Part shown: piece after piece, positions 11,647 through 49,177 of the stretch | How the letters are laid out: each line of letters opens with the position of its first letter | Numbering within the stretch: the stretch's first letter is position 1 | Assembly (NCBI RefSeq): GCF_035953295.1 | Contig: NZ_CP108370.1 | Coordinates: forward strand, 3,687,001 to 3,751,000 | Reading direction: 5' to 3' | Length of the DNA stretch: 64,000 nucleotides | Origin: Streptomyces sp. NBC_01335 | Lineage (GTDB): Bacteria > Actinomycetota > Actinomycetes > Streptomycetales > Streptomycetaceae | Notes under the pieces: generated by a model | The model's database searches: none | Told to the model about the DNA's origin: nothing | What the model saw: only the letters and a program-made list of their open reading frames with translations | Program-made: the position numbers and the translations under genes

Positions 11647-12594
11647 TCAGGCGGAGGCTTCGGTGAGCCGGTCCAGGTCCTCGTCGGTCAGCGTGAGGTC
11701 GGCGACCGCGAGCAGTGCGGGGAGCTGTCCGGGCGTACGGGCCGAGGCGATCGGCGCCACGACCGTGGGGCGGGACGCGAGCCAGGCCAGCGCGACCGTG
11801 GCGATCTCGGCCCCGTGCGCCTCGGCGACGGCGTCGAGCGCGCTCAGCACCTTCTGCCCCCGCTCGGATTCCAGGTGCGCTCCGGCCTTCTCGGCGCGGG
11901 CGCTCTCCACCCGCGTACCGGGCCGGTACTTGCCGGTGAGGAAGCCGGATGCCAGCGCGAAGTACGGGACCGCGCCGAGACCGGTCTCGGCGGCGAGGTC
12001 CTGCGCGGGGCCCTCGTAGGTGTCGCGGGAGACCAGGTTGTAGTGCGGCTGGAGGGCGACGTAGCGGGCCAGTCCCTCGCGCTCGGAGAACGCGAGCGAG
12101 GCGCGCAGGCGCTCGGGGCTGATGTTGGAGGCGCCGATCTCGCGGACCTTGCCCTCCTTCACCAGCTGGTCGAGGGTGGTGACGATCTCCTCCACCGGGA
12201 CGCTCTCGTCGTCGTAGTGCGTGTAGTAGAGGTCGATGTAGTCGGTGTCGAGCCGCCGCAGGGACTCCTCCACCGCGCTCTTGACCGTGCCGGTGGCGAG
12301 CCCCCGGTACTCGGGGTGGGCACCGACCTTGGTGGCGACGACGACGTCGGCGCGGTTGCCGCGGGCCTTGAGCCACTTGCCGATCAGCGTCTCGGACTCG
12401 CCGCCCTGATTGCCGGGGACCCAGGCCGAGTACGCGTCGGCGGTGTCGACGAAGTTGCCGCCGGCCGCGGTGTAGGCGTCGAGGACCGCGAAGGACTGGG
12501 CCTCGTCGGCGGTCCAGCCGAAGACGTTGCCGCCGAGGGCGAGGGGGAAGACCTCGATGCCGGACGTTCCGAGCTTGCGGAGAGAAGAAGTCAT
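11647..12594 (-). CDS. Aldo/keto reductase
   Basis: An NAD(P)H-dependent (beta/alpha)8 oxidoreductase of about the usual 315 residues. The catalytic tetrad is intact: Asp50, Tyr55 (NFVDTADAYS), Lys89 (VVATKVG) and His126 (YTHYDDE). The nucleotide site motif IASARTPGQLPALL lies near the C-terminus. The upstream region has no obvious ribosome binding site before ATG 12594. Substrate cannot be deduced. It is followed by the converging prsW-like gene. Confidence 0.88.
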   Translation of the reverse strand: MTSSLRKLGTSGIEVFPLALGGNVFGWTADEAQSFAVLDAYTAAGGNFVDTADAYSAWVPGNQGGESETLIGKWLKARGNRADVVVATKVGAHPEYRGLATGTVKSAVEESLRRLDTDYIDLYYTHYDDESVPVEEIVTTLDQLVKEGKVREIGASNISPERLRASLAFSEREGLARYVALQPHYNLVSRDTYEGPAQDLAAETGLGAVPYFALASGFLTGKYRPGTRVESARAEKAGAHLESERGQKVLSALDAVAEAHGAEIATVALAWLASRPTVVAPIASARTPGQLPALLAVADLTLTDEDLDRLTEASA

Positions 12595-12837
12595 GAAGGG
12601 TTCAACGGTGCGGGCGGAGGGCCGTATTCCGGCCAGGGGCTCCGATCGCGGCCGCCACCGCCCGGGGCTCGCTCCTCGCGCGCCGTCGACGGCCCCGCCC
12701 GGGTCGCGCTCCTCGCGCGCACTGCGCGTCCGTGCTCCGGGTGGAAGGAGAACCGTGGGTGGAGAGAGAACCGGCAGCCCTGACGCCCTGGGGGGGGTAG
12801 AGCGTCGAGGCTGCCGGGGTTCGGGGGACGCGGAGCG

Positions 12838-13893
12838 TCAGATCGTGAGGCCCTTGTCGGTCAGCCAGGTCATCGGGTCGATGCCGGTGCCGTCCGGGGT
12901 GTGGACTTCGAGGTGGAGGTGCGGGCCGGTGACGTTGCCGGTGGCTCCGACGCGGCCGATGGTGTCGCCCGTGCTGACCTGCTGGCCGACGACCACGTCC
13001 ATGGAGGACTGGTGGCAGTACCAGATCTCCGTACCGTCGTCGAGCTCCAGAACCGTGCGGTAGCCGTACGAGCCCGACCAGCCCGCGGACTTGACCGTAC
13101 CGCCGTGCACGGCCTTGACCGGAGTGCCGGTCGGCGCGGCGAAGTCCAGCCCGGTGTGCTGCCCGGAGGCCCACATCGTGCCGGCCTCGCCGAAGGTGGA
13201 GGTGATCGTGTACGAGGAGGTGGGGAGCGAGTAACTGGCGGCGAGCTTGGCGAGCCGCTCGGCCTCGGCCTTCTTCGCCGCGGCCTCCTCGGCCGCCTTC
13301 TTCTCCGCGGCGGCCTTCGCCTCCGCCTCGTCCTGCTGCTTCTTCGCCTCGGTGGCGGCCTTGGTGGCGGCCGCCGCCTCCTCGGCCGCCTTCGCGTCCG
13401 CGTCGGCGGCGGACTGCTGCTGCTCGGCCTGCTGGAGGATGCGGGCGCGCAGGGCCTCGCCCGCGTCGGTGGCACCCTGCTCGGTCTCGGCCGTGGTGAG
13501 CCCGGCCGTGGTGAACGGCGCGGCCGCCGCCACCGGCTCGGGGGTGTTGTCGGACTCGACCGCGGTGATCAGTGCGCCCAGCCCGGGAACGGACTTGGCG
13601 TCGGGAAGGTTGTCCGCGAGCGAATCGGGAAGAGAGATGGAGACCGGCGGCTTGCTCTGCGCGGTGGCCATGCCGCCCGCACCGACGGCCGCGATGACGC
13701 CGACCCCGAGGACGGTGGAACTACGCGCGAGACCGCGCTGCTTGGCCACGCGGTGCCGGCCGCGTACGGGGCGGAGGGAATCCTCGGTGGGGTTCCATTC
13801 CTCCCACGCCTTGTCGGAGTCGCCGGGGGACCCGAAACCGTCGAGGGTGGCAAAAGGTGACGGGGCTTCGGGGGCAGGCTGGTTGGACGCCAC
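12838..13893 (-). CDS. Secreted or membrane-anchored M23 peptidase (cell-wall endopeptidase)
   Basis: The C-terminal ~125 residues are a LytM/M23 zinc endopeptidase: GQHTGLDFAAPTGTP supplies the H-x3-D ligands and GPHLHLEVH the HxH pair. Such enzymes cut peptidoglycan cross-bridges. Before it lies a hydrophobic segment (STVLGVGVIAAVGAGGMATA, about 60-80), which is an internal anchor or signal, and a long Ala/Glu/Lys coiled coil (about 150-225). I chose GTG 13893 (VASNQPAPEAP) because AAGGAG lies 9 bases upstream and because the longer frame from 14007 would run through the riboswitch. Control by c-di-AMP links wall remodelling to spore germination or growth, as for rpfA in this genus. Confidence 0.9.
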   Translation of the reverse strand: MASNQPAPEAPSPFATLDGFGSPGDSDKAWEEWNPTEDSLRPVRGRHRVAKQRGLARSSTVLGVGVIAAVGAGGMATAQSKPPVSISLPDSLADNLPDAKSVPGLGALITAVESDNTPEPVAAAAPFTTAGLTTAETEQGATDAGEALRARILQQAEQQQSAADADAKAAEEAAAATKAATEAKKQQDEAEAKAAAEKKAAEEAAAKKAEAERLAKLAASYSLPTSSYTITSTFGEAGTMWASGQHTGLDFAAPTGTPVKAVHGGTVKSAGWSGSYGYRTVLELDDGTEIWYCHQSSMDVVVGQQVSTGDTIGRVGATGNVTGPHLHLEVHTPDGTGIDPMTWLTDKGLTI

Positions 13894-13919
13894 GGAGGCG
13901 CACTCCTTTCCTTCCTTCT

Positions 13920-14047
13920 CGCCTACCGGGTTAGCTGACGGGTTCGGAGCAGGAAGGTCTCCTACGGGCTCCTGGCGTCTCCGAGGAGACACAGGTGTCC
14001 GATTCACCCCAAGAAGTGGTTCCCCGGTTCCCTTGCGGAATTCGGCG
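13920..14047 (-). promoter_or_regulatory. ydaO-type c-di-AMP riboswitch
   Basis: On the minus strand the leader carries the hallmarks of the ydaO/yuaA class: CGCCGAA at the 5' edge, AAGGGAACCGGGGAACCA, TTGGGGTGAATCGGACAC, and ACCCGTCAGCTAACCCGGTA just before the closing GGCG. CGCC (14047-14044) pairs with GGCG (13923-13920) as the terminal stem. The element ends 26 bases before the GTG of the M23 peptidase. Members of this class turn expression off when c-di-AMP is high, and in Streptomyces they lie upstream of cell-wall hydrolases. Confidence 0.9.
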
Positions 14048-14361
14048 CTCGCGCACGGCGCCGTCTCTGACGACGGCTGGGACGACCGCGCTGCGTTATC
14101 GAACGTTAATAGACAGACGGCTCCGATTCCAAGCCGTTCCCCTTGATCATTCCCGCTTGAGGGCGGGATTTACCAGGGCATATCACCACTCATCAGGGCG
14201 ACTTGCGGACAGTCGGTGCGCCCATCCTTTTCTGACGGTGTGTCATATGTTATCGAGCGGCACCGGTCTGCTACGGACCGTCGTCGCATCCGCCCGACGG
14301 GCCCGGGCGCACTCCGGGCAGGCTCGGGGGAACCTCGGGGGCGATGCCCCGCGGACCCGCG

Positions 14362-15519
14362 TCAGCCCCTCCCCCGGCCCACGATCGGCACGGTGGTCCG
14401 GCGCTCCGGCTGGTCCTCCGCCGGCCGGGCGACCGCGAGCAGCGCCAGGTCGTCCGTGGAGCGGCCACCGGTGTGCAGCCGGACGTCGTCGGTGAGCGCC
14501 GTCAGCAGCTCGTCGGGCCCCGGGAAGATCCGCCCGCGCAGCCGCTGGGCCGGGTCGTAGAACACGCCCGCCCGGTCGCGTGCCTCGGAGAGCCCGTCCG
14601 TGTAGGTCAGCAGGGTCGCACCCGGCGGGAGGTCCCACTCGTCCACCTGGTCCGGCCAGGCGCCCAGCGCCATGCCGAGGGGCAGCGCGGGCATGCTCGG
14701 CCGCAGCACGTCCAGCGCCCCTCCGGCATGGAGCAGCAACGGTTCGGGGTGGCCCCGGTTGACGATCCGCAAGGTCGCGGCGCCCTCCGGGATCTCGGCG
14801 AGCACCGCGGTCACGAACCCCTCCACCGGGTCCAGTCCCCCGCGCCGTGCGGCGTCCCTGGCCAGCGCCCGTTCCAGCCGCTGCGCCACCCCCTCCAGCG
14901 ACTCCTCCTGCTCGGCCGCCTCCCGGAAGGCGCCGATGATCACCGCCACCGCCTCGACCGCGTCGAGCCCCTTGCCCCGTACGTCGCCGAGCACGAGGCG
15001 TACGCCGTACGGGGTGTCCGCGACGGCGAAGAGGTCGCCGCCGACGTACTCGTCCGCCTGCGCCGCCTCGTACCGCGCGGCGACATGGAGCCCGCCGACC
15101 CGCTCGGCCGGGACGGGCAGCACCGCACGCATGGCGGTCTCCGCGATGATCCGGGCGGAGGCGAGCTGCTCGTTGCCGCGCCGTACGACTCCGTTGATGA
15201 CGAGCGCCAGCACGGCCGTGGTGAAGACGGTGAGCGTCTCGATGATCGGGACGATCTGCCCGATGGTGCCCACGTAGACCCGCATCGCGATGACGGCGGA
15301 GAGCGAGGCGACACCGATCCGGATGGTGCCGGCCCGGGAGGCGAACGGCGCGGCGATCAGGGGGGCGGCGACGAACAGGGGCACCGCCGTGAAGCGGGGC
15401 GGTGAGGCGATGTCGAAGACGAGTCCGCCGGCGATGAGCAGGGCAGGCAGCATCCGTACGAAACGCCGGGCGCCCACACCCCCGGCCATCCAGCCATGCC
15501 CGTACAGCGGTTTCCCCAC
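14362..15519 (-). CDS. Membrane-anchored SpoIIE/PP2C-type serine phosphatase
   Basis: The N-terminal ~110 residues hold four or so hydrophobic segments (LPALLIAGGLVFDIA; TAVPLFVAAPLIAAPF; VFTTAVLALVING). The C-terminal ~240 residues form a PP2C_SIG domain: DEYVGGDLFAVADTPYG and LVLGDVRGKGLDAV carry metal-binding Asp residues, and YTDGLSEARD and GRSTDDLALLAV the later ones. Such phosphatases usually dephosphorylate anti-anti-sigma proteins. No anti-sigma partner is adjacent. I chose GTG 15519 (VGKPLYGHGWMAGG), which has AGGAG about 10 bases upstream; ATG 15489 is possible, and the longer frame from 15780 has no support. Confidence 0.82.
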   Translation of the reverse strand: MGKPLYGHGWMAGGVGARRFVRMLPALLIAGGLVFDIASPPRFTAVPLFVAAPLIAAPFASRAGTIRIGVASLSAVIAMRVYVGTIGQIVPIIETLTVFTTAVLALVINGVVRRGNEQLASARIIAETAMRAVLPVPAERVGGLHVAARYEAAQADEYVGGDLFAVADTPYGVRLVLGDVRGKGLDAVEAVAVIIGAFREAAEQEESLEGVAQRLERALARDAARRGGLDPVEGFVTAVLAEIPEGAATLRIVNRGHPEPLLLHAGGALDVLRPSMPALPLGMALGAWPDQVDEWDLPPGATLLTYTDGLSEARDRAGVFYDPAQRLRGRIFPGPDELLTALTDDVRLHTGGRSTDDLALLAVARPAEDQPERRTTVPIVGRGRG

Positions 15520-15941
15520 CTCTGCGCTTCTCCTGCCCTGTCCCGCCACGGGTGCGGAACCTACCGCGCCCTGCCCAGGCTGGCCCGAACCGCGCCGCGC
15601 GGCGACTCCTCGTCGTCCATAGGGGGGAGCGCACGACTCCCCTTCGAGCGCCCCCACCGCCGGCGTACGCCGGGTGGTCAGGACCGGCGAAGCGATGAGT
15701 TCCGCGCCGCGCGGCGACCCCTGCGCGCCGCGCACGGAAACGGCGGAGCGGCTGCCCCGGACGCCCGGGCGCCCGTCCACACGTTCGACCGAACGGCACG
15801 GACCGCGCAGGCGTGCGAGACATTTCCTGGATGGACCAGTTCATGCCCGGTACGACAGATCGTTATGCCCAGGGATCGCGTCCGCGCCCGCACGCGGGAC
15901 CGGGCGGGCGACGAGCCCGCACGCACACGCAGAAACGACTC
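15520..15941. other. Gene-free stretch between phosphatase and tRNA-fMet
   Basis: About 420 bases with no supported gene. Reading frames on both strands lack ribosome binding sites and recognisable products. It contains the promoter of the phosphatase gene somewhere near 15520-15620, but I cannot pick boxes with confidence. Confidence 0.5.
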
Positions 15942-31259: not shown

Positions 31260-31332
31260 GCCCTCATCGTCTAGTGGCCCAGGACGCCGCCCTTTCAAGG
31301 CGGTAGCACGGGTTCGAATCCCGTTGGGGGCA
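31260..31332 (+). tRNA. tRNA-Glu (TTC)
   Basis: A 73-base cloverleaf with acceptor GCCCTCA / TGGGGGC and discriminator A. The anticodon loop CTTTCAA gives anticodon TTC. The T-arm to 3' end (from 31309) is repeated at 43549, which marks this gene as one edge of the island. Confidence 0.95.
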
Positions 31333-31336
31333 CGCA
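31309..31336 (+). repeat. Left direct repeat (candidate att site) in tRNA-Glu 3' end
   Basis: 28 bases, from CGGGTTCGAATCCCG in the T-arm through the 3' end and 4 bases beyond. They are identical to 43549-43576. Tyrosine integrases favour exactly this part of tRNA genes. Confidence 0.75.
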
Positions 31337-31375
31337 CAACCTTGCGCATGCGAATTCGTTCGCACACGCAAACAT

Positions 31376-31450
31376 GGTCCTGTGGAGCAGTTTGGAGTGC
31401 TCGCCACCCTGTCAAGGTGGAGGCCGCGGGTTCAAATCCCGTCAGGACCG
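31376..31450 (+). tRNA. tRNA-Asp (GTC), first copy
   Basis: 75 bases from GGTCCTGTGGAGC to the discriminator G. Anticodon loop CTGTCAA gives GTC. The sequence is identical to the copies at 43611 and 49095. Confidence 0.95.
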
Positions 31451-31477
31451 CTTGCAGATCACTTCGGTGAACTGCGT

Positions 31478-31551
31478 GGCTGGGTAGCTCAGTTGGTACG
31501 AGCGATCGCCTGAAAAGCGATAGGTCGCCGGTTCGATCCCGGCCCCAGCCA
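31478..31551 (+). tRNA. tRNA-Phe (GAA), first copy
   Basis: 74 bases from GGCTGGGTAGCTC to discriminator A. Anticodon loop CTGAAAA gives GAA. Here CCA follows (31552-31554); in the otherwise identical copy at 43708 it does not. Confidence 0.95.
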
Positions 31552-31558
31552 CCAGAAA

Positions 31559-31832: not shown

Positions 31833-34800
31833 ATGTCTGAGCGGGCCCGGCTCAGCCTCGGTGATCTGACTGCAGGGCGTGCCGTGTCGGGCATTGTCAC
31901 CGGCGGCGACGTCACAGTGGTCGCTGTACAGATGTTCGGGCCGGCGGCGGCGCAGGTGACGTATCGGCGCCCCGACGGCACTGTGGAGGAGCGAATCCTC
32001 TACGAGGAGGATGCTGCGCGACTCGCTGAGGTGGCCTGCGGCTCGGTAGGCAGCGGTTTCGACGCGGATCCTGGCTTGTTCCGGCTGGCGGCCGAAGCGT
32101 TGCGGATCCGGATGGCTGCGCGCGGCGACGCAATGCTGGCGGTGTCCACCAGTCTCCTCGATCCGCTGCCCCACCAGATCCAGGCTGTCTACAACGAGCT
32201 GCTGCCGCGGACCCCGCTGCGTTTCCTCCTCGCTGACGACCCCGGTGCAGGGAAGACCATCATGGCCGGGCTTTACATCAAGGAGCTGGCGCTCCGCGGT
32301 GATCTGGAGCGCTGTCTCATCGTCGTGCCGGGAGGACTAGTCGAACAGTGGCAGGACGAGCTGCTCGAGAAGTTCGGCCTCGACTTCACCCTCCTCACCC
32401 GGCAGCTGACCGACGCGACGATCGAGGGCAACGTCTTCGATCGTCATCCCCGGCTCATCGCTCGCATGGACGCGTTGGCGCGCTCCGAGGATATGCAGCG
32501 GCTGCTCGGGGAGAGCGGGTGGGACCTGGTCGTCGTGGACGAGGCCCACCGGATGAGCGCTAGTTACTTCGGCACGGAGCTGAAGACCACGAAGCGCTAC
32601 GAGCTTGGTCGCCTCCTTGGTCGCCTCACTCGCCACCTGCTCCTGATGACCGCCACCCCACACGCAGGCAAGGAGGAGGACTTTCAGCTGTTCATGACGC
32701 TGCTGGACAGCGACCGGTTCAGCGGCCGCTATCGGGCAGGTATCCACCGGCACGATGTCTCCGGCCTGATGCGACGCATGATCAAGGAGGACCTGCTCAC
32801 CTTCGATGGCAAGCAACTGTTCCCAGAGCGCCGCGCTTACACCGTGCCGTACGAACTGTCGCCTGCTGAGTATGACCTGTACGAGCAGGTCACGGAGTAC
32901 GTCCGCCAGGAGATGAACCGGGCGGAGCGGTTGGACGGCCGACGAGGCAACCAGGTCGGTTTCGCGCTTACCGTCCTCCAGCGTCGCCTCGCCTCCAGCC
33001 CAGCGGCGATCCACCGGTCCCTAGAACGCAGGCGGATGCGACTGGAGACCCGACGTCAGGAGATGTTGTCGGATCAGACCGTGGCGAACTTGGCCCTTGA
33101 GTCCGCACCGTCCATCCCCGTCGAGGACGAGTTGGACGACTTGACCGGTGGCGAGTTGGAGGATCTCGAGGAGCAGGTCGTCGATGCGGCGACCGCCGCC
33201 CGCACCCTCCAAGAGCTGGAGCTGGAGATCGCCGCGCTGAGCGAGCTGGAGCGGCTCGCCGCACGGGTACTGGCCTCCGGCGACGACCGCAAGTGGCGGG
33301 AGTTGTCGGGGCTGCTCCAGGATGACCCGCTGTTGCGGGATGAGAGAGGGCTGCCGCGCAAGCTGATCATTTTCACCGAGCATCGCGACACTCTTGAGTA
33401 CCTGTCCCGCCGCATCAGGAATCTGATCGGACGCCCCGAGGGAGTCGTCGCCATCCATGGCGGCACCCCACGCCCACAGCGCCGTGACATCCGCGATGCC
33501 TTCAACCAGGACCCCGAAGTTCGCGTTCTTGTCGCTACCGACGCAGCCGGCGAGGGCCTCAACCTCCAGCGCGCTCACCTCATGGTCAACTACGACCTGC
33601 CGTGGAACCCCAATCGAATCGAGCAGCGCTTCGGCCGGATCCACCGCATCGGCCAGACCGAGGTTTGCCACCTGTGGAATCTGATTGCCGCCGACACTCG
33701 AGAGGGGCAGGTCTTCCAACGACTCCTCGACAAGATCGAGCAGCAGTCGAGAGCATACGACGGCAAGGTCTACAACGTCCTGGGTGAGCTCTTCGAGGGC
33801 GAGCCGTTGCGAGGCTTGCTCTTGGAGGCAATCCGCTACGGCGACCGACCTGAGGTCAAGAGCCGCCTGGATCAGGTCATCGACGCCCGGGTAGGTGAGC
33901 GGGCAGTGGAGCTGATCAAGGGGCTCGCACTCGACACCCATGTCATGGGGTTGGAGGACGTCGAGGCGGTACGGCTGCGTATGGAGGAGGCTCAAGCCAA
34001 GCGGTTGCATCCGCACTACGTACGAGCCTTCTTTCGTGACGCCTTTGACCGTCTCGGTGGTCACCTCAGGGCGCGAGAAAACGGCCGTTTCGAGATCACT
34101 CATATTCCGTCCCTCCTGCGCGATACGGGCCGCTTTGGGCTCGGCCTGGGCGGAGTCGTGCAGCGCCGCTATGAACGGGTGTGCTTCGACCGCGAGCGCG
34201 TCACTGTGCCTGGCGCCGCCCGGGCCGACCTCATCGCCCCTGGGCACCCGCTCTTCGACGCGGTTCTGGAAGAGACGGTTCACCGGCACGGGGACCTACT
34301 CACGCGAGGCGCGGTTCTGATCGACGCCTCCGATGCAGGGACCACCCCCCGACTGTTGACCGCGCTGGTCCAAGAGGTCGTCGATGGGCACGGACGGTCA
34401 GTGGACCGTTCCTTTGCGTTCGTGGAGCTGAATCCCGACGGAACGGCCCACGACGCGGGCCCTGCTCCCTATCTGGACTATCGCCCGCCCACGCCCCGGG
34501 AGGCCGAGGCGGCAGGGGCGCTACTCACGGATGAGTGGCTCCGAGATGGGGGGCCCGCCCGTGCCATGGACTGGGCCGTGCGGGAGGCCGTCCCGCAGCA
34601 CCTGAACCGCACCCGGGAACGACTGCTGCCCGTCATCGAGCGTACTCGTGCCCAGGTCGAGCAGCGGCTGCGGCAGGAGATCAGCTTCTGGCATGCGCAG
34701 GCCGGAAAACTCGAACTGGATGTTGCCGAGGGCAAGAAAGTCCGTCACCGTCCGGAAACCGCGCGTGCTTGGGCTGAGGACCTTGAGCGCCGCCGTGAGC

Positions 34801-35348
34801 AACGTTTGGCCGTGCTCGACAAAGACCAGGCTCTTCAGGCCCGCCCGCCAGTAGTGGCGGGCTGCGCGCTCGTTGTACCTGTGGGCTGGCTGGTCAGACA
34901 CCTTGGCCCTGCCGAGACCCCGGTAGAGAGGGCTGTACTCGCTGCCATGCATGCGGCCGACGGCTACGAGACCGACCGGCGGGCTGTGGCTGCGGTACTC
35001 GGCGCCGAGCGTGGCCTTGGGCGCGTCCCTGAAGAGATGGCCCACAACAATCCCGGCTACGACATCCGATCGCTTAGTCTTAACGGTCACCTCGTGCACA
35101 TCGAGGTGAAGGGTCGCCGAGAGGGCGCAGAGCACTTCTACGTCAGCCGAAACGAGGTCCTCGTCGCCAAGAATCGCGGCGCGCAGCATCGTCTCGCCCT
35201 GGTCTCCGTCAGTCCGCGGGGGGCGGAGCACGACGAGATCCGCTACTTGACCGACGCCTTCGCCGACACCGACTTCGGCGACCTGCAGACCGAGGGTGTG
35301 CTGCTGTCCTGGCAGGACGCCTGGAACAAGGGAGGAACCCCGCAGTGA
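31833..35348 (+). CDS. SNF2-type helicase with C-terminal DUF3883 nuclease-like domain (Hma-type defence)
   Basis: A 1171-residue superfamily 2 translocase. Motif I DDPGAGKTIMAG (~134-145), DEAH (~236), TATPHAG (~270), then the second lobe with IIFTEHRDTLEYL (~510), VLVATDAAGEGLNLQ (~566) and the SNF2 hallmark QRFGRIHRIGQT (~600). The C-terminus (~1070-1150) reads NNPGYDIRSL...VHIEVKGRREGAEHFYVSRNE, a DUF3883 domain whose D...ExK arrangement fits a restriction-endonuclease-like fold. The enzyme probably moves on DNA and may cut it. ATG 31833 follows GGGGAG by 7 bases. The stop overlaps the methyltransferase start (GTGA). With the DUF1156 and DUF499 genes this is the set called Hma (helicase, methylase, ATPase), as I recall the name. 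Codon usage is clearly less GC-biased than the flanks. Confidence 0.85.
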   Translation: MSERARLSLGDLTAGRAVSGIVTGGDVTVVAVQMFGPAAAQVTYRRPDGTVEERILYEEDAARLAEVACGSVGSGFDADPGLFRLAAEALRIRMAARGDAMLAVSTSLLDPLPHQIQAVYNELLPRTPLRFLLADDPGAGKTIMAGLYIKELALRGDLERCLIVVPGGLVEQWQDELLEKFGLDFTLLTRQLTDATIEGNVFDRHPRLIARMDALARSEDMQRLLGESGWDLVVVDEAHRMSASYFGTELKTTKRYELGRLLGRLTRHLLLMTATPHAGKEEDFQLFMTLLDSDRFSGRYRAGIHRHDVSGLMRRMIKEDLLTFDGKQLFPERRAYTVPYELSPAEYDLYEQVTEYVRQEMNRAERLDGRRGNQVGFALTVLQRRLASSPAAIHRSLERRRMRLETRRQEMLSDQTVANLALESAPSIPVEDELDDLTGGELEDLEEQVVDAATAARTLQELELEIAALSELERLAARVLASGDDRKWRELSGLLQDDPLLRDERGLPRKLIIFTEHRDTLEYLSRRIRNLIGRPEGVVAIHGGTPRPQRRDIRDAFNQDPEVRVLVATDAAGEGLNLQRAHLMVNYDLPWNPNRIEQRFGRIHRIGQTEVCHLWNLIAADTREGQVFQRLLDKIEQQSRAYDGKVYNVLGELFEGEPLRGLLLEAIRYGDRPEVKSRLDQVIDARVGERAVELIKGLALDTHVMGLEDVEAVRLRMEEAQAKRLHPHYVRAFFRDAFDRLGGHLRARENGRFEITHIPSLLRDTGRFGLGLGGVVQRRYERVCFDRERVTVPGAARADLIAPGHPLFDAVLEETVHRHGDLLTRGAVLIDASDAGTTPRLLTALVQEVVDGHGRSVDRSFAFVELNPDGTAHDAGPAPYLDYRPPTPREAEAAGALLTDEWLRDGGPARAMDWAVREAVPQHLNRTRERLLPVIERTRAQVEQRLRQEISFWHAQAGKLELDVAEGKKVRHRPETARAWAEDLERRREQRLAVLDKDQALQARPPVVAGCALVVPVGWLVRHLGPAETPVERAVLAAMHAADGYETDRRAVAAVLGAERGLGRVPEEMAHNNPGYDIRSLSLNGHLVHIEVKGRREGAEHFYVSRNEVLVAKNRGAQHRLALVSVSPRGAEHDEIRYLTDAFADTDFGDLQTEGVLLSWQDAWNKGGTPQ

Positions 35349-38146
35349 GCGGTGCAACCGAAGACACGGCCTCTGCTCCGGAGCGCCGCACCAAGCTCAT
35401 CGAGGTATCCCTCCCTCTGGAGGCGATCAACAGGGAGTCGGCTCGGGAGAAGTCCATCCGGCACGGGCACCCGTCCACGCTCCACCTGTGGTGGGCGCGC
35501 CGGCCGTTGGCGGCTGCGCGTGCGATGCTCTTCGCTCAGCTCGTGGACGACCCGGCTTCGCGGCCTGATCTGTATCCGGGGCTGGAGGAGCAGAAGGCCG
35601 AGCGGCAGCGATTGTTCGACCTCATCGAGGAGATGGTGCCTTGGGAGGCCACGCGCGATGAGCGGATCATGCGCAAGGTTCGGGAGAAGATCGCCGAGTC
35701 GCATGGTGACGGTCCACTTCCGCCTGTCCTTGACCCCTTCGCCGGCGGTGGGACGATTCCGCTGGAGGCGCACCGGCTGGGGCTTGAGGCTCATGCCAGT
35801 GACCTGAATCCGGTGCCGGTTGTCATCAACAAAGCGTTGATCGAGATCCCGCCCAAGTGGGCTGGGTGCAAGCCGGTGTCCCCGACTGCAGAACTGCGCC
35901 ACGAGGGGAGCTGGCGGGGAGCGAGCGGGCTTGCGGAGGATGTTCGACAATACGGCCGGTGGATGCGGGAGCGGGCATACGCCAAGATCGGCAACCACTA
36001 TCCGAAGGCCAAACTGGATGATGGGAGCGAGGCAGCAGTCATTGCCTGGCTTTGGGCTCGGACGGTGGCCTGCCCTGACCCGGCTTGTGGGGCCGAGATG
36101 CCCTTGGTGAGGTCGTTCTGGCTGAGCAAGAAGAAGGACCGGCCCTGCTATGTCGTCGCTGAACCAGTGGACGGGCGGGTGACGTTTACCATAGGCGGTC
36201 CCGAGGGCAAGCCCCGGGAGGGGACTGTAGACGGCAAGGGCGCCGAGTGCCTGATGTGTGGAAACCGGGCCACGCTGAAGTACGTCCGATCCGAGGGCGT
36301 GGCTGGGCGGATGGGCGCAATGATGATGGCCGTGGTCGCGGAGGGGAAGCGGCGGCGGGTGTATTCGGCGCCTACGGCGGAGCATGTGGGGGCAGCTGAC
36401 GTAGCGCGACCTGCTGATGTCCCTGAGTCCGAACTGCCCGATCAGGCCCTCGGCTTCAGGGTGCAGGGGTACGGCATGCGGAAGCATGCAGACCTATTCA
36501 CCAACCGGCAGCTGATTGCCCTGACGACGTTCAGCGATCTTGTGGGTGAGGCTCGCGAGAAGGTCGAGCAGGATGCGCGGGACGCGGGCTTGGAGGCAGC
36601 CGCGGCAGCTGACTACGGCAAGGCAGTGGCAACATATCTCGGTTTCGCCGTTAGCCGGATGTCCGACTACGCGTCGACCATCACCACTTGGGCTAGCAAT
36701 CCGCAGATGGAGATCCTTCGTGGCACCTTTGCTCGCCAAACCCTCTCGATGACTTGGGATTTTGCTGAAGGCAACGTGTTTGGCCCATCCTCGGGCACCT
36801 TGGAGATCATGCTGGCTGCGATCGGTAAGACTCTGGACGCTCTGCCTGCTCAAGACATACAGGGTCACGTCAGCCAAGCGGACGCGAGCCACCGCTCCTA
36901 CGAGAATTACGTCATCAACACCGATCCCCCCTACTACGACAACATCGGTTACGCCGACCTCGCCGACTTCTTCTATGTCTGGCTTCGCCGCTCACTAGGC
37001 GACATCTATCCCGAGGTCATGAGCACGATCCTCACCCCCAAAGAGCCGGAACTCATCGCCACCCCCTACCGCCACGGCGGGAACTGGGAGGCAGCCGAGA
37101 AGCACTTCGAACGCGGCTTCGTCGAGACCTTTACGCACATGCGCGCAGGCCACCACCCGGACTACCCGCTCACGGTCTACTACGCGTTTAAGCAGGCGGA
37201 GACCGACGCCGAGGACGGCACGGCCTCGACCGGCTGGGAGACGCTGCTCAGCGGCATGATCGAGGCTGGCTGGTCGGTCACCGGCACATGGCCGGTGCGT
37301 ACCGAGCGAACCGGCCGTTCCCGTGACATCGGCTCCAACGCCCTCGCGTCCTCCGTAGTCCTAGCTTGCCGCCCCCGCCACGTCACCGCCGGCTCAACCG
37401 ACCGTCGTGGCTTCCTTCGTGCCCTGCGCAGTGAACTCCCAGACAAGCTGCGGAAGCTGCAGGAGGGCAATCTCGCCCCCGTCGACCTCCCTCAGTCCGC
37501 GATCGGCCCCGGTATCGCGGTGTTCTCGCGATACTCGAAGGTCACCGAGCCCGACGGCACTCCCATGCGCGTACGCACTGCACTCGGACTCATCAACGAC
37601 GTCCTCGCCGACGTGCTGAACGAACAAGAGGGCGAGTTCGACCAGGACACCCGGTGGGCGATCCGCTGGTTCGAGCAGTTCCAGTGGAGTAAGGGCACCT
37701 TCGGGGACGCCGAGACGCTTGCAAAGGCGTACAACGTGTCCGTAAAAGGGCTCCAGGACGCCCACATCACTGCCTCCGGCGACAGCAAGGTATGGCTCAT
37801 GGCCCCGGCCGACCTGCCGGAGTCGTACGACCCAGAGACGGACAGCCGTATCTCCGTGTGGGAAGCCGCCATGCACCTGTCCCGGGTGCTGGACGGAAAG
37901 GGCGCACAGTCCGGCGTAGGGCCGGCCGGTGAGCTGCTCGCCGGGATCCGGGCGCGCGGGGAATTCGACGAGGATGCCATCCGTGACCTCGCCCACCTGC
38001 TCTACAGCATCTGCGACCGACGGCGCTGGTCTGAGAGTGGCCAGCGGTTCAACAACCTCGCCAGTGCCTGGTCCGACCTCCAGACCGAGGCCCGTAACTC
38101 CGAGAAGCGCGGCCCGCGCAAACCCCAGCACCAGCCCCTCTTCTGA
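35345..38146 (+). CDS. DUF1156 adenine/cytosine-N4-type DNA methyltransferase (Hma-type defence)
   Basis: 933 residues. DUF1156 begins near residue 17 (KLIEVSLPLEAINRESAREKSIRHGHPSTLH.WWARRPL). The SAM loop DPFAGGGTIPLEA is near 129 and the catalytic TDPPYYDN near 525, so the DPPY-type amino-methyltransferase core is present and intact. Cys pairs CPDPAC (~243) and CLMC (~302) form a zinc-ribbon-like insertion. By analogy with BREX and DISARM it would mark host DNA so that partner proteins can recognise unmarked invaders; the target sequence is unknown. GTG 35345 overlaps the helicase stop. The C-terminal 200 residues are helical and unassigned. Confidence 0.87.
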   Translation: MSGATEDTASAPERRTKLIEVSLPLEAINRESAREKSIRHGHPSTLHLWWARRPLAAARAMLFAQLVDDPASRPDLYPGLEEQKAERQRLFDLIEEMVPWEATRDERIMRKVREKIAESHGDGPLPPVLDPFAGGGTIPLEAHRLGLEAHASDLNPVPVVINKALIEIPPKWAGCKPVSPTAELRHEGSWRGASGLAEDVRQYGRWMRERAYAKIGNHYPKAKLDDGSEAAVIAWLWARTVACPDPACGAEMPLVRSFWLSKKKDRPCYVVAEPVDGRVTFTIGGPEGKPREGTVDGKGAECLMCGNRATLKYVRSEGVAGRMGAMMMAVVAEGKRRRVYSAPTAEHVGAADVARPADVPESELPDQALGFRVQGYGMRKHADLFTNRQLIALTTFSDLVGEAREKVEQDARDAGLEAAAAADYGKAVATYLGFAVSRMSDYASTITTWASNPQMEILRGTFARQTLSMTWDFAEGNVFGPSSGTLEIMLAAIGKTLDALPAQDIQGHVSQADASHRSYENYVINTDPPYYDNIGYADLADFFYVWLRRSLGDIYPEVMSTILTPKEPELIATPYRHGGNWEAAEKHFERGFVETFTHMRAGHHPDYPLTVYYAFKQAETDAEDGTASTGWETLLSGMIEAGWSVTGTWPVRTERTGRSRDIGSNALASSVVLACRPRHVTAGSTDRRGFLRALRSELPDKLRKLQEGNLAPVDLPQSAIGPGIAVFSRYSKVTEPDGTPMRVRTALGLINDVLADVLNEQEGEFDQDTRWAIRWFEQFQWSKGTFGDAETLAKAYNVSVKGLQDAHITASGDSKVWLMAPADLPESYDPETDSRISVWEAAMHLSRVLDGKGAQSGVGPAGELLAGIRARGEFDEDAIRDLAHLLYSICDRRRWSESGQRFNNLASAWSDLQTEARNSEKRGPRKPQHQPLF

Positions 38147-38193
38147 ACGCCCGTCCCACTCACAGGCACCCGGAAAGGCAGGACACCCGCACC

Positions 38194-41100
38194 ATGGCGG
38201 TGAACAACCGAGACCGTATCAACCGCATGATCGACATCCTCGGGGAGGGCCTGCTGCCCTTCCTGGAGAGGGAAATGATCAAGCGGCAGGGCGACAACTG
38301 GTTCGAGGACGCGGAGAGCGAGGCTCGAGGGCAAGGGAAGCAGATCGGCAGGACCGATCCGCAATTCCTGCTGAACCTCCTCCAGCGATACTGGAGCACC
38401 TACTTCCGGCATCTTCTCCCGGCGAGCGCCCGCGGATTCGCCAGTGAGCTGAACGCCGTGCGCAACCAGTGGGCACACAACGAGAAGTTCACCGCGGACG
38501 ACACCCTGCGCGCGCTGGACACGGCGGAGCGACTGCTGCGGGCCGTGCACGCGGATCCCGTCCTGGTCGAGGAGGTCCGCGAGTCCCGGCAGACGCTGCA
38601 CCGGCAGGTAACAGAGGAAGAGACGAAGAAGGCGGCTCGCCGCGCGCGTGCCGTGCCGAGCGTGGCCGCTGAGGGGCTGCGGCCCTGGCGTGACGTGCTC
38701 ACCCCGCACGAGGACGTGGCGCGTGGTGACTTCAACGCCTCCGAGTTCGCCGCCGACCTATGGCGGGTGGCACGCGGCGAGGGCGCCGCGGAGTACACCG
38801 AACCCGAGGAGTTCTTCCAGCGGACATACCTCACCGAGGGCCTCGAAGAACTGCTTTCCAAGTCACTGCGCCGGATCAGCGGTGACCCGAACGCCGCCCC
38901 CGTCATCAACCTCCAGACCAACTTCGGCGGCGGCAAGACACACTCCATGATGGCGCTGTACCACCTGTACGCGCCGGGCCTGAAGATGAACCGGCTGCCG
39001 CAGGACCTTCAGGAGTTGATCGCCGTCGCGCCCGGCGGTGGGCTGCCTGGCGGGACAGTGCACCGGGCCGTGCTGGTCGGTAACGAGCTGGGTATCGGGC
39101 AGGCCGACGTCAAGCCCGATGGCACCGTCGTCAACACCATGTGGGGCCAACTCGCCTGGGGGCTCGGCAAGAGGCAGGCATACGACATCATCGCCGAGGC
39201 CGACCGCACCAGCACCAGCCCCGGCACCGCACTGCTCCAGGACCTGATCGCCGCCTACGCGCCCTGCGTAATCCTCATCGACGAGTGGGTTCAGTACGCC
39301 GGTCCGCTGCTCGGCAACGACAACCTGCCTGCCGGGTCCTTCGAGACACACTTCTCCTTCGCCCAGTCCCTCACCGAGGCCGTCGCCTCCGTCGACGGGG
39401 CTCAGTTGCTGGTCTCCATCCCGGCTTCCGCGACTGGCGAGATCAGCGCCGCCGACCAGTACGACATCGGCGGCGAGAACAACCGCACCGCGCTGGAGCG
39501 ACTCCAGAACGTCGTCCACCGCAAGGCCGACGCTTGGCGCCCCGCCAGCTCCGACGAGTCCTTCGAGATCGTGCGCCGTCGTCTCTTCCAGACCCCCACC
39601 AGTGAGGTCCAAGCCGAGATCAACAAGGTGGCGCGGCTGTACACGCAGTTCTACGGCACTGAGAAGCGCGAGTTCCCGGCCGGCTGCGACACCATGGACT
39701 ACGAGCGGCGAATCAAGTCGACCTACCCGATCCACCCGGAGCTGTTCGCCCGACTGTACGAAGACTGGTCCACGCTGCCCAGGTTCCAGCGCACCCGAGG
39801 TGTGCTGCGGCTGATGAGCACGGTCATTCACGCGCTGTGGCGGGACCAGAACCAGAGTCCCATGATCATGCCCGGTGACGTGCCCATACACGACACCCGC
39901 GTCAACCAGGAGCTGACGTACTACCTAGAGGACCGCTGGAAGCCGATCATCGACGCCGACGTCGACGGACCGGACTCCACGCCGGCCTCCGTCGATGCCG
40001 AGAAGCCCGTGCTCGGGCAACGTGGCATGAGCCGCCGCGTGGCCAGGACCGTCTTCATGGGCTCCGCGCCCCGCGTGCACGCCGCTCGTAAGGGCCTGTC
40101 CGAGCCGCACATCCGCCTTGGCATGGCTATCCCCGGCGAGCCGCTGGGTAACTTCCGCACGGCTCTCAACGCCCTCGCCGACCGCTCCACGTACCTCTAC
40201 GGCGACGGCGAACGCCACTGGTACGACACCCACGCCAACATCACGCGTACGGCCAAGGACGAGGCGAACAAGCTCATCGAGGACCCCGACAGGGTGTGGG
40301 CGGACGTGGTGCGCCGACTGAGTGTGGTCCAGGGGGTACGCGGCCAGTTCAGCGCCGTCCACGCAGCGCCGCTGCCCGCGAGCGACATTCCGGATAACGA
40401 CAACGCGCGCCTGGTGCTGCTACACCCCCGCTTCACGCACCGTAGCGCCCGTGACGTGCCCGACACTGAGGCCCTGAGCTTCGCCCAGGAGGCCCTTGAC
40501 CAATACCGCTCCAGCACCCGGCAACACCGCAACGCCCTCGTCTTCCTCGCCCCCGACCGCAAGGAGATGGAGGAGGTCGCCGAGGCTGTCCGCGAGTACC
40601 TGGGCTGGAAGCAAGTCCTCACACAACACGTCCAGCTCGATCTGACGGAGAACCAGAGGACGCAGGCGAGGACCCGGATGGAAAAGGCTGACGAGACAGT
40701 CAGCCTTCGCCTCGGCAAGGCCTACCGGTGGGTCCTTGTTCCCGAGCAGACCCCCGGCACCAAGATCGAATGGGTCAACTTCAAGGTCGACCTGCAAGCC
40801 ATTGATGACGCGGCCATCCAGGTCGGTGATCGTCTGAAGCGTCAGGGCATGCTTTACGTCCTACAGGCTCCTGCCGTCCTGCACCAGCGGATCAACGACG
40901 CCCTGAGCCAGGAGTGGAACCGGGACGGCCACATCTCCGTCGGTCGCCTGTGGGAACTGCACACCAAGTACCCGTACATGAATCGTCTGCGTGACCGCTC
41001 AGTCCTAGACCGAGGTATCGAGGACGTCCTGTCCCACGTCACCTGGGAGACGGATGGCTTCGCCCTCTCCACCAGCCATGATCCCGAGGCCGGCCGCTAT

Positions 41101-41589
41101 CTGGGACTTGTCCTGCCCTGCCGCAATGTGTCCTTCGGTCAGATCACCGACAGCACGCTGCTGGTACGAGCCGACGTTGCCATCGCTCAGGAGACCGCGG
41201 ATCTGGCGGCCGCCGCCCAGCACCAGAAGCAAGCCAATCAGGTCCATGATGCCGACGACGGCACAGGCAGCGCGGCCGAGCAGAGCGCTGGTGGTTCGTC
41301 GGCGTCACTACGCCCGGCGCCTGGCGCCCCGGTCCCGGCGCCGACTCCGTTGCCGCGCGTCCCGACCCGCTTCTATGCCCACGCCCGGCTGGACACCGAG
41401 CAATACAGCAAGCACGCCACAAAGTACGCCTTCGAAATCCTCCAGCACCTCGAAGCCATCGGGGCGGACGTCGAGGTCACGGTCGAGATCCAAGCGACCG
41501 CGCCCGGCGGTTTCCCCGCGGACAAGGTTCGCACCCTCACGGAAAACGCCAACACCCTCAAACTGCAGGCCCAGTTCGAGGAGGAATAG
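38194..41589 (+). CDS. DUF499 ATPase with N-terminal Swt1-type HEPN domain (Hma-type defence)
   Basis: 1131 residues. The N-terminal ~115 residues (INRMIDILGEGLLPFLE... then ELNAVRNQWAHNEKF) match the Swt1-like HEPN domain; R90-N-Q-W-A-H95 is the Rx4H motif that forms the active site in HEPN RNases. The DUF499 P-loop ATPase follows: INLQTNFGGGKTHSMMALY (~240) and CVILIDEW (~359). The C-terminal ~75 residues (TRFYAHARLD...EVTVEIQA) are typical of DUF499, after a Pro/Ala linker. The gene begins 47 bases after the methyltransferase. It is probably the sensor or effector hub of the system; whether the HEPN domain cuts RNA or only pairs proteins cannot be told from sequence. Confidence 0.85.
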   Translation: MAVNNRDRINRMIDILGEGLLPFLEREMIKRQGDNWFEDAESEARGQGKQIGRTDPQFLLNLLQRYWSTYFRHLLPASARGFASELNAVRNQWAHNEKFTADDTLRALDTAERLLRAVHADPVLVEEVRESRQTLHRQVTEEETKKAARRARAVPSVAAEGLRPWRDVLTPHEDVARGDFNASEFAADLWRVARGEGAAEYTEPEEFFQRTYLTEGLEELLSKSLRRISGDPNAAPVINLQTNFGGGKTHSMMALYHLYAPGLKMNRLPQDLQELIAVAPGGGLPGGTVHRAVLVGNELGIGQADVKPDGTVVNTMWGQLAWGLGKRQAYDIIAEADRTSTSPGTALLQDLIAAYAPCVILIDEWVQYAGPLLGNDNLPAGSFETHFSFAQSLTEAVASVDGAQLLVSIPASATGEISAADQYDIGGENNRTALERLQNVVHRKADAWRPASSDESFEIVRRRLFQTPTSEVQAEINKVARLYTQFYGTEKREFPAGCDTMDYERRIKSTYPIHPELFARLYEDWSTLPRFQRTRGVLRLMSTVIHALWRDQNQSPMIMPGDVPIHDTRVNQELTYYLEDRWKPIIDADVDGPDSTPASVDAEKPVLGQRGMSRRVARTVFMGSAPRVHAARKGLSEPHIRLGMAIPGEPLGNFRTALNALADRSTYLYGDGERHWYDTHANITRTAKDEANKLIEDPDRVWADVVRRLSVVQGVRGQFSAVHAAPLPASDIPDNDNARLVLLHPRFTHRSARDVPDTEALSFAQEALDQYRSSTRQHRNALVFLAPDRKEMEEVAEAVREYLGWKQVLTQHVQLDLTENQRTQARTRMEKADETVSLRLGKAYRWVLVPEQTPGTKIEWVNFKVDLQAIDDAAIQVGDRLKRQGMLYVLQAPAVLHQRINDALSQEWNRDGHISVGRLWELHTKYPYMNRLRDRSVLDRGIEDVLSHVTWETDGFALSTSHDPEAGRYLGLVLPCRNVSFGQITDSTLLVRADVAIAQETADLAAAAQHQKQANQVHDADDGTGSAAEQSAGGSSASLRPAPGAPVPAPTPLPRVPTRFYAHARLDTEQYSKHATKYAFEILQHLEAIGADVEVTVEIQATAPGGFPADKVRTLTENANTLKLQAQFEEE

Positions 41590-41718: not shown

Positions 41719-42693
41719 ATGGCCGCACGCAACCGGGACAGAATCGTCCATTTCTATGAGATCGCAGACGCCGACGCTCCCGACGGTGCCCGTCTGCCCC
41801 ACCGGGATTGGGCAGAGCACATCCGTCGTCTGTGCGCCCAGCCACTGGCCAGGCGCACCGTGCCCGCGGGGGAGGACATCTTGATCGGTGCCGTCGATCC
41901 CCATCAGACGGCTCCGCACTTGCTCCTTGCCAAGTCTCGCCAGGACGTACCGCAGCTCATTAATCACGTCGACGGCACCCTCAGTCGGCTCCAGCTTGCC
42001 GCCGACAAGGAATTGGTTGACGTTACAACCGTGTACTTCCTGCCCTTCGGCAACGTCGTTGCAACCATGGCCGGCGGCATCTCGGCCCCCCGCGCGCAGG
42101 CGCTCAAGCGCTGGCTGGAGGGCATCCGCGTCGCAGCTCCGGACGTCCGCAACCTCGTGCTGCGGCCGGTGGTTAACGCCCGATCCCGGGAGAAACTCCA
42201 GCATGCCGTGGCCATCGAGAAACTCACGGTGAAGATCGCTCCCGAGCCCGCTGACAGCCCCTCCACTCTGCGCGCCAGCTCCGACCTCGGCACAGCCATC
42301 AGCCGCATGCACACGGACAACCCGGACATGGTCATCACTCTGACCCTGGAGGTCCCGAAGAAGTCGGGCATCCTGTCGACGCGCCGCCGGGCCCGTGGTC
42401 ACAACCAACTCCTCGGCTCAACAAGGGTTTTCGCGAGTGACATCGAGGACTGGCTGGACAACTCTGACGTCGTTGACACGGCTGCCGCGCAGGCCCGCAT
42501 GGAGGCCTGGCACAGCGAGGCTGATGACGAGAAGATCGACTTCGTGAGCGAGCGCATCACTGCAAAATGCGTCGTCCCCTTCTCCTCTGGCAATGGCCAC
42601 GCCATCGACCTGCAGGTGGCCCTGAACAAGCTGGAGGGGGTCTCCCTGGAGAACGAAAGGGTGCTACGGGCCGCTGTCAGTGCCGACATCTAG
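41719..42693 (+). CDS. Island protein of unknown function (324 aa)
   Basis: I do not recognise a family. The protein starts MAARNRDRIVHFYEIADAD and is soluble and mixed alpha/beta. It has a mid-region VTTVYFLPFGNVVATMAGGISAPRAQALKRWL and ends KIDFVSERITAKCVVPFSSGNGHAIDLQVALNKLEG. No catalytic motif stands out. It begins 129 bases after the DUF499 ATPase stop and is followed within 60 bases by a membrane protein gene on the same strand. Start ATG 41719 has GGGGG about 8 bases upstream. The short common opening NRDRI shared with the DUF499 protein is probably chance. A sensor, antitoxin or regulator for the neighbouring membrane protein are options. Confidence 0.7.
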   Translation: MAARNRDRIVHFYEIADADAPDGARLPHRDWAEHIRRLCAQPLARRTVPAGEDILIGAVDPHQTAPHLLLAKSRQDVPQLINHVDGTLSRLQLAADKELVDVTTVYFLPFGNVVATMAGGISAPRAQALKRWLEGIRVAAPDVRNLVLRPVVNARSREKLQHAVAIEKLTVKIAPEPADSPSTLRASSDLGTAISRMHTDNPDMVITLTLEVPKKSGILSTRRRARGHNQLLGSTRVFASDIEDWLDNSDVVDTAAAQARMEAWHSEADDEKIDFVSERITAKCVVPFSSGNGHAIDLQVALNKLEGVSLENERVLRAAVSADI

Positions 42694-42752: not shown

Positions 42753-43289
42753 ATGCCGAGCCTTGTGGAAGCGGTTCGCCGGGTTCTTAACGGTTGGCGA
42801 TCCCGTCCGGTGACGGACTGGCTACTGACGGCAGCTCTCCTCGGCGGGCACGGTTTGCTGGTTGCCCTAACCGGACGCGGTGACATCCTCGGTGCGCCTG
42901 AGCGCGAACAACGCTTGACGATGTATACGACTGGCGCCACCGTCGTCGCAGTGGTCGGGAGCTTCGTCACTGCCGCCATTGCTCAGTACGCTTCGGCGAG
43001 CGGCCGCCGGATGCGAGTTCTGCGTACCGCGCCTCACTTGGCCTCACAATTCCGGCGGAACTGGGTGAGTGTCCTATCAGCCACTCTGCTCATCTCTGGT
43101 ACGTGTCTCCTTGCAACCGCCCTCGACACCAAAAGTGACCCGGGCGATGTGCACTGGGCCGTGGAAGGCGCTCTGATCCTCGGTGTCGCTCGGTCCTATC
43201 GCCTGCTATGGCTGTTCAACGCTGTCATCCAGGCATCAGATAAAGATCTTGCAGATCTCCCTCAGACAACGGTGCAAGGCCCTCGCTAG
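42753..43289 (+). CDS. Small island membrane protein with about four helices
   Basis: 178 residues with four hydrophobic segments: DWLLTAALLGGHGLLVALTG, YTTGATVVAVVGSFVTAAIAQYA, WVSVLSATLLISGTCLLATAL and VEGALILGVARSYRLLWLFNAVI. A basic stretch (ASGRRMRVLRTAPHLASQFRRNW) lies between helices 2 and 3. ATG 42753 is preceded by a G-rich run with GGGGGAG; the longer reading frame upstream has no support. It is next to the unknown 324-residue gene and at the end of the defence cassette. Small membrane proteins in that position are often effectors that permeabilise the cell; that is inference. Confidence 0.65.
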   Translation: MPSLVEAVRRVLNGWRSRPVTDWLLTAALLGGHGLLVALTGRGDILGAPEREQRLTMYTTGATVVAVVGSFVTAAIAQYASASGRRMRVLRTAPHLASQFRRNWVSVLSATLLISGTCLLATALDTKSDPGDVHWAVEGALILGVARSYRLLWLFNAVIQASDKDLADLPQTTVQGPR

Positions 43290-43548: not shown

Positions 43549-43576
43549 CGGGTTCGAATCCCGTTGGGGGCACGCA
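43549..43576 (+). repeat. Right direct repeat (tRNA-Glu 3' fragment, candidate att site)
   Basis: 28 bases identical to 31309-31336. The upstream part of tRNA-Glu is missing, so this is a fragment and not a functional gene. Confidence 0.8.
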
Positions 43577-43610: not shown

Positions 43611-43685
43611 GGTCCTGTGGAGCAGTTTGGAGTGCTCGCCACCCTGTCAAGGTGGAGGCCGCGGGTTCAAATCCCGTCAGGACCG
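43611..43685 (+). tRNA. tRNA-Asp (GTC), second copy
   Basis: 75 bases, identical to the copy at 31376. The spacer to the tRNA-Glu fragment differs from that in the first cluster. Confidence 0.95.
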
Positions 43686-43707
43686 CTGCAGTTCTCAGGA
43701 GCTGCGT

Positions 43708-43781
43708 GGCTGGGTAGCTCAGTTGGTACGAGCGATCGCCTGAAAAGCGATAGGTCGCCGGTTCGATCCCGGCCCCAGCCA
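43708..43781 (+). tRNA. tRNA-Phe (GAA), second copy
   Basis: 74 bases, identical to the copy at 31478 but without an encoded CCA. Its promoter, if separate from read-through, is not obvious. Confidence 0.95.
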
Positions 43782-43788
43782 CCTCCCG

Positions 43789-49094: not shown

Positions 49095-49169
49095 GGTCCT
49101 GTGGAGCAGTTTGGAGTGCTCGCCACCCTGTCAAGGTGGAGGCCGCGGGTTCAAATCCCGTCAGGACCG
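49095..49169 (+). tRNA. tRNA-Asp (GTC), third copy
   Basis: 75 bases identical to the copies at 31376 and 43611. Anticodon loop CTGTCAA. It has its own promoter and terminator and stands alone. Confidence 0.95.
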
Positions 49170-49177
49170 CAGCAGTC

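Follow-up and report, generated by a model that had tools for sequence, protein, structure and literature searches.

A tRNA-Glu island of Streptomyces sp. NBC_01335 carries an HEPN-containing Hma core followed by a candidate RexAB-like gene pair

The stretch analysed here, called the window, comprises 64,000 nucleotides of Streptomyces sp. NBC_01335 (contig NZ_CP108370.1, positions 3,687,001 to 3,751,000; the source genome has 8.36 Mb in 4 contigs). The subject is an Hma-type defence locus, i.e. the genes hmaA, hmaB and hmaC, which are followed by two further genes, orf4 and orf5, inside an island at a tRNA-Glu gene (Table 1). The comparisons reported below show five open genes with families or predicted folds, kept motifs, a duplicated attachment (att) site and a gene order common to seven loci; the functional reading built on them is predicted from sequence. 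All genes of the core lie on the plus strand, with a 4-nt overlap between hmaA and hmaB, and a gap of 129 bp lies upstream of orf4. The initial annotation had described a three-gene system of contiguous, partly overlapping genes. This is true of the Hma trio, but the unit in this Streptomyces lineage has five genes and reaches up to position 43289.

Table 1. Features of the tRNA-Glu island and its borders (window coordinates)
Feature	Position	Strand	Description and basis
hmaA	31833-35348	+	1171 aa; SNF2-type helicase with C-terminal NOV_C/PD-(D/E)XK-like tail (~34977-35213); profiles, motifs
hmaB	35345-38146	+	933 aa, GTG start; DUF1156 DNA methyltransferase, DPPY at residues 527-530
hmaB variable segment	35891-36940	+	likely target-recognition domain; DNA and protein block comparison with L033
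hmaC	38194-41589	+	1131 aa; DUF499 AAA+ ATPase with N-terminal HEPN_Swt1 (~38224-38547)
orf4	41719-42693	+	324 aa; RexA-like soluble protein; comparisons and predicted fold
orf5	42753-43289	+	178 aa; membrane protein, four long helices, RexB-like position and architecture; start chosen by the authors
Left att copy, tRNA-Glu 3' end	31309-31335	+	direct repeat; inside tRNA-Glu 31260-31333 plus 2 bases beyond
Island-borne tRNA-Asp and tRNA-Phe	31376-31451 and 31478-31554	+	ARAGORN; spacer unlike the native type of 12 relatives
Right att copy, tRNA-Glu 3' end without the rest of the gene	43549-43575	+	direct repeat
Native tRNA-Asp and tRNA-Phe	43611-43686 and 43708-43783	+	outside the island; ARAGORN, spacer comparison with relatives

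The three core proteins were assigned to Hma, the name suggested in the initial annotation, by the PADLOC profiles PDLC00659 (HmaA, 1403 bits, residues 8-1145), PDLC00660 (HmaB, 1064 bits, residues 15-923) and PDLC00662 (HmaC, 863 bits, residues 162-1129), and the best profiles for the island proteins are the Hma ones. Pfam agrees with the families first read from the letters, i.e. SNF2-related, Helicase_C and the DUF3883 tail NOV_C (PF13020, residues 1049-1127) in HmaA, DUF1156 in HmaB and DUF499 in HmaC. The description of HmaC as a DUF499 ATPase was correct but overlooked an HEPN_Swt1 domain at the N terminus (Pfam, residues 11-118), which carries an Rx4H motif. A single full-length HmaA copy is found in the whole genome, the other six matches being helicase-domain pieces. 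Neither HmaB nor HmaC matched a Protein Data Bank (PDB) entry by sequence at the limits used.

The conservation of the motifs was followed in an alignment of the window proteins with 13 relatives (n=14). DDPGAGKT, VDEAH and the tail motif G[YF]D...EVK of HmaA, D[PL]FxGGG (SAM motif) and TDPPY of HmaB, and GGGKT (Walker A) and the acidic DE of HmaC were kept in all sequences (14 out of 14 for each protein). The D...ExK arrangement that the initial annotation had seen in the helicase tail corresponds to D1077 and E1091-V-K1093, and cleavage by this tail is predicted. The HEPN motif (window: RNQWAH) is clearly recognisable in 8 of the 14 HmaC proteins; it differs in 5 (L112-L116), and L117 has a gap at this stretch. 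A loss of the motif in the clade of L112-L116 was suspected and then dropped, since there is an Rx6H reading. The core genes are confirmed as intact and correctly named, with their catalytic motifs retained, and we infer that HmaA, HmaB and HmaC are active.

Hma was named in 2021 from 1,638 instances (PMC8565338). According to excerpts of a 2026 paper (PMC12839542), the gene set is a Type-1 BREX-related (bacteriophage exclusion) system that shares homology with the core of type-3 BREX, and its effector is expected to be the helicase-nuclease. The same excerpts list 2446 taxa, with an HEPN fusion in 1370 and a helicase-nuclease fusion in 1921, propose restriction with an HEPN back-up, and state that the helicase has been confirmed by an experimental study to act in defence. 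HEPN-DUF499 together with an SNF2-DUF3883 helicase had been recorded already in 2013 (PMC3710099). Novelty was therefore rejected both for the three-gene set (present in PMC8565338 and PMC12839542) and for the HEPN fusion (PMC12839542 and PMC3710099). The initial annotation had also set the locus apart from BREX and DISARM by its missing partners. These are indeed missing: no separate PglZ, DUF1998 or PLD protein was matched in the island with Pfam, PADLOC or NCBIfam (the PLD-named rows are only helicase-domain matches of HmaA), PADLOC gave neither PglZ nor BrxC among the five genes, the DISARM DrmD profile NF038317 reached 375.5 bits, below its curated cut-off of 610, and PglW was not found in the window's genome at E 1e-100. 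The separation from BREX itself does not stand, however, given the BREX-related classification in PMC12839542.

No family was found for orf4 at E 0.001, or for orf5 in its longer reading, with Pfam, PADLOC and NCBIfam; the version of orf5 with the likely start had none in Pfam at E 5. By sequence, orf5 had no match in the PDB at the limits used, and orf4 had four chance-level rows. In protein searches, orf4 gave 30 rows, among them its own cluster, and orf5 gave 67; the named organisms in these rows are Streptomyces, except for one Kitasatospora (orf5). The predicted structure of orf4 matches a RexA-type fold, where the structural evidence from the PDB is a second look with VIA-align that re-ranks Foldseek's own candidates only. 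The arrangement is likewise that of RexAB, i.e. the gene of a soluble protein adjoins the gene of a predicted four-helix membrane protein; in the hydropathy plot of orf5 three helices are clear and the fourth is marginal.

Other identities were tried and rejected. A relation of orf4 to DUF6731 is weak (2 out of 17 members, best E 0.0055), and DUF6731 is absent from the open-access literature searched. As for known phage genes, neither orf5 nor the distant L125 version of orf4 matched anything in the phage collection, where the orf4 of the window was not searched.

A scan of the genome collection with an orf4 alignment, which reaches only close relatives, gave 6 loci with the order hmaA-hmaB-hmaC-orf4-orf5 in each of them, and together with the window this five-gene order is common to seven loci. 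The wider distribution was surveyed in 392 genomes of the genus. HmaC has matches in 25 genomes, with scores above 800 bits at 10 places in 9 genomes; orf4 occurs at 19 places in 18 genomes and PglW in 90 genomes (E 1e-100). Of the 10 high-scoring HmaC places, 4 have orf4 next to hmaC (G000, G176, G271 and G365). The remaining 15 orf4 places were all fetched and none has an Hma match, but at 4 of them orf4 stands divergently beside pglW (G090, G032, G304 and G008) at a spacing of about 290-340 bp that depends on the chosen starts. A gene-by-gene check of G090 showed a complete Pgl locus (PglW, PglX, PglY/BrxC, PglZ, BrxD, BrxHI); those of G032, G304 and G008 were identified through PglW only. 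The occurrence of orf4 beside pglW, or near neither system, rules it out as an Hma-only gene. Its partner is more constant, orf5 being found beside orf4 at 17 out of 19 places (4 out of 4 Hma-linked, 13 out of 15 others).

When 27 orf4 proteins were placed in a tree, the 7 Hma-linked and the 4 Pgl-linked sequences came out as sister groups (99/96), and 9 unattached rows lie outside them. The Hma part also takes in seven database rows for which no gene context is given, and there are several long branches. The eight links of orf4 to Hma or Pgl may thus go back to only one or two events. In a set of 394 genomes of the class, orf4 matches were found in 5, one of them outside the family (G625), and five plasmid records carry relatives with 30-32% identity. 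In G625 the orf4-like gene stands between a gene with a weak helix-turn-helix match and a small hydrophobic gene (L125:704-2900). Near two unattached orf4-orf5 pairs there are genes for an Mrr-type endonuclease and a caspase-domain protein (L045:3652-4575; L051:6166-7485). On one contig of G271 (C407; L036, L111) two Hma systems lie about 13-19 kb from each other, and only one of them has orf4-orf5.

The variability along the Hma unit was investigated as DNA identity to L033 (Streptomyces sp. 549), calculated for 150-base blocks of the window. It is 93-99% over 31841-35890, drops to 57-83% at 35891-36940, within hmaB, and returns to 91-99% at 36941-37690; later blocks range from 83 to 99%, the lowest being at the right end of the island. 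The protein blocks of HmaB follow the same course, with 94-98% at residues 1-200, 52% at residues 401-500 and 94-100% at residues 551-933. This is as expected if HmaB carries an exchangeable target-recognition domain, i.e. hypervariability inside a near-identical operon, and the two hmaB genes are a natural pair for mapping Hma specificity. L037 and L038 have an identity to the window of 42-43% for HmaB as a whole, 77% for HmaA, 67% for HmaC, 64% for orf4 and 68-73% for orf5; their hmaB appears to be a different methyltransferase lineage within the same operon. HmaC has a short hypervariable block of its own near the C terminus (residues 1001-1050; window 40194-41589), possibly a second recognition surface.

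The tRNA-flanked setting that had been proposed for the locus was also found. ARAGORN places tRNA clusters on either side (Glu-Asp-Phe at 31260-31554, Asp-Phe at 43611-43783), and the 27-bp tRNA-Glu 3' end is duplicated at 31309 and 43549, with 12,240 bp between the copies. The exact 27-mer is present in 273 of the 392 genomes, and two copies occur only in G000 and G097 (per-genome table). All 12 fetched relatives with a single copy have Glu-Asp-Phe and then hrpA 0.1-4.4 kb further on. Since the spacer of the right Asp-Phe pair is of the native type and that of the left pair is not, the att-to-att unit seems to bring its own tRNA-Asp/Phe pair. The GC content is 65% in the island and 71-75% in the flanks. 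A third tRNA-Asp lies after hrpA (window 49095-49170); it is also present in 10 of the 12 relatives (the other two stretches stop earlier) and is therefore not part of the island. The codon-bias picker found no further open reading frame (ORF) in the island, but it overlooked orf5 as well, so small genes are possible.

Other units use comparable sites. L033 has the same Asp/Phe setting as the window, and its Hma unit is followed by a second unit (11831-15597) with a nucleotidyltransferase/HepT-like pair; both end in the tRNA-Glu 3' end, tRNA-Asp and tRNA-Phe, i.e. they are tandem units at one tRNA site. In G097, 34.6 kb of other cargo lie between two tRNA-Glu 3'-end copies ahead of hrpA (L126:1594 to L127:17373). 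Among the other Hma loci, L034 is near a tRNA-Pro and L036 near a tRNA-Thr, and L035, L037 and L038 have no tRNA within their 21 kb. No integrase was recognised in the island by profile searches and an ORF check, as one would expect of a decayed or silent remnant that has lost its integrase and whose defence genes are unused. We regard this as very improbable, as the five frames are open with kept motifs and the DNA identity to L033 is high outside the variable segment, which argues for recent selection.

We lean, by a narrow measure, towards the reading that the 12.2-kb island joins a restriction-like, HEPN-containing Hma core to a RexAB-like abortive module with coupled function. HmaB would methylate a specific host DNA site, its variable segment setting what counts as foreign; HmaC may assemble or license the complex, HmaA would translocate on unmarked DNA and cut it with the PD-(D/E)XK-like tail, and the HEPN domain could act as an RNase back-up. 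If the infection persists despite restriction, or if the Hma core is inhibited, orf4 would act as a RexA-like sensor, possibly DNA-binding, that opens a membrane channel formed by orf5; the membrane potential would then collapse and the infection be aborted. For the phage CarolAnn pair, both genes are required and a channel model has been proposed (excerpts of PMC6426606).

A number of results weigh against this reading. Pfam RexA (PF15969) has no match in orf4 of P0004, L049, L051 or L125, compared with 326.8 bits for lambda RexA, and orf4 is therefore called RexA-like and not a member of the filed family. The hhalign probability for orf4 and RexA is 2%, and a narrower alignment (A1) covers 38 columns at E 0.14. 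The alignments of orf4 with CarolAnn gp44, of orf5 with RexB and of orf5 with CarolAnn gp43 are not significant (9, 4 and 5 out of 100 shuffles as high, respectively). The confidence of the orf4 model is only moderate, with a predicted local distance difference test (pLDDT) score of 63.5, and the other four models are at about 50; RexA is not among the 50 matches listed from the viral-structure library, and the fold matches of orf5 are generic bundles. As for the linkage, neither orf4 nor orf5 was matched within 18-19.5 kb at the remaining 6 high-scoring HmaC places (out of 10). At 11 of the 19 places of orf4 there is no Hma match and no PglW (E 1e-100) nearby on the same contig, some of these stretches being short. 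In other words, neither part needs the other.

The same absences, together with the plasmid-borne relatives and a gap before orf4 that leaves room for its own promoter, are what one would see if orf4-orf5 were a RexAB-like abortive system in its own right that happens to lie in the island without sensing or supporting Hma, with Hma working alone as in other bacteria. This is possible, if on the unlikely side: the gene order is kept in seven loci at differing sites despite replacement or strong divergence of HmaB, and the orf4 protein has a sister-group tie to another BREX-type system. It is improbable that the pair is no killing effector but regulates or localises the Hma complex, for instance with orf4 binding DNA as a regulator and orf5 serving as an anchor in the membrane. 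RexA does bind DNA in a non-specific manner, and it biases the lambda switch even in the absence of RexB (excerpts of PMC11077077), but a pure DNA regulator would not need the membrane partner that accompanies orf4 at nearly all of its places. More tentatively, and with some doubt, the coupled reading can be extended: the RexAB-like pair might be a dedicated, swappable effector of BREX-type systems, which would act with Hma in one Streptomyces lineage and with Pgl (type-2 BREX) in the sister lineage, sense the failure or inhibition of restriction and then collapse the membrane potential. If true, it would represent a membrane arm of BREX-type immunity.

The Hma core has been described before; the five-gene arrangement with the RexAB-like pair may be new. 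It was not found in the open-access literature searched (supplements excluded), and excerpts of the RexAB literature (PMC11077077, PMC6426606 and PMC12894663) tie no RexAB-type pair to Hma or BREX. A RexAB-like pair kept beside Hma and Pgl would bring RexAB-type modules out of prophages and place them in restriction loci of the chromosome, and BREX-type systems would gain a membrane effector besides the nuclease effectors catalogued for them (excerpts of PMC12839542). The locus also makes it testable whether the pair acts solely in the presence of the restriction core, or upon its blockage.

Compared with known systems, the window shares with Hma, i.e. the Type-1 BREX-related system, the helicase with a PD-(D/E)XK-type tail, the DUF1156 methyltransferase, the DUF499 ATPase and the HEPN fusion; an N-terminal TUDOR in the helicase and a C-terminal RRM in the ATPase are further features of the known system. 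It differs by the RexAB-like pair, which the excerpts of PMC12839542 do not mention (the word "transmembrane" occurs 0 times in its main text). With RexAB (lambda; CarolAnn gp44/gp43, Sbash gp30/gp31) it shares the order of a soluble protein and then a small four-helix membrane protein, the predicted RexA-type fold of orf4 and the length of CarolAnn gp43 (178 aa, as orf5), whereas the present pair is chromosomal, is found beside Hma or Pgl and not beside a phage repressor, and has neither a Pfam RexA match in orf4 nor a significant RexB match in orf5. BREX type 2/Pgl is related through the sister lineage of orf4-orf5 that adjoins pglW in four genomes, but the window island lacks PglW, PglX, PglY and PglZ. 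PrrC, which accompanies a type I restriction system, is a further example of restriction paired with an abortive back-up; by analogy, the back-up in the window would be a membrane module instead of an RNase.
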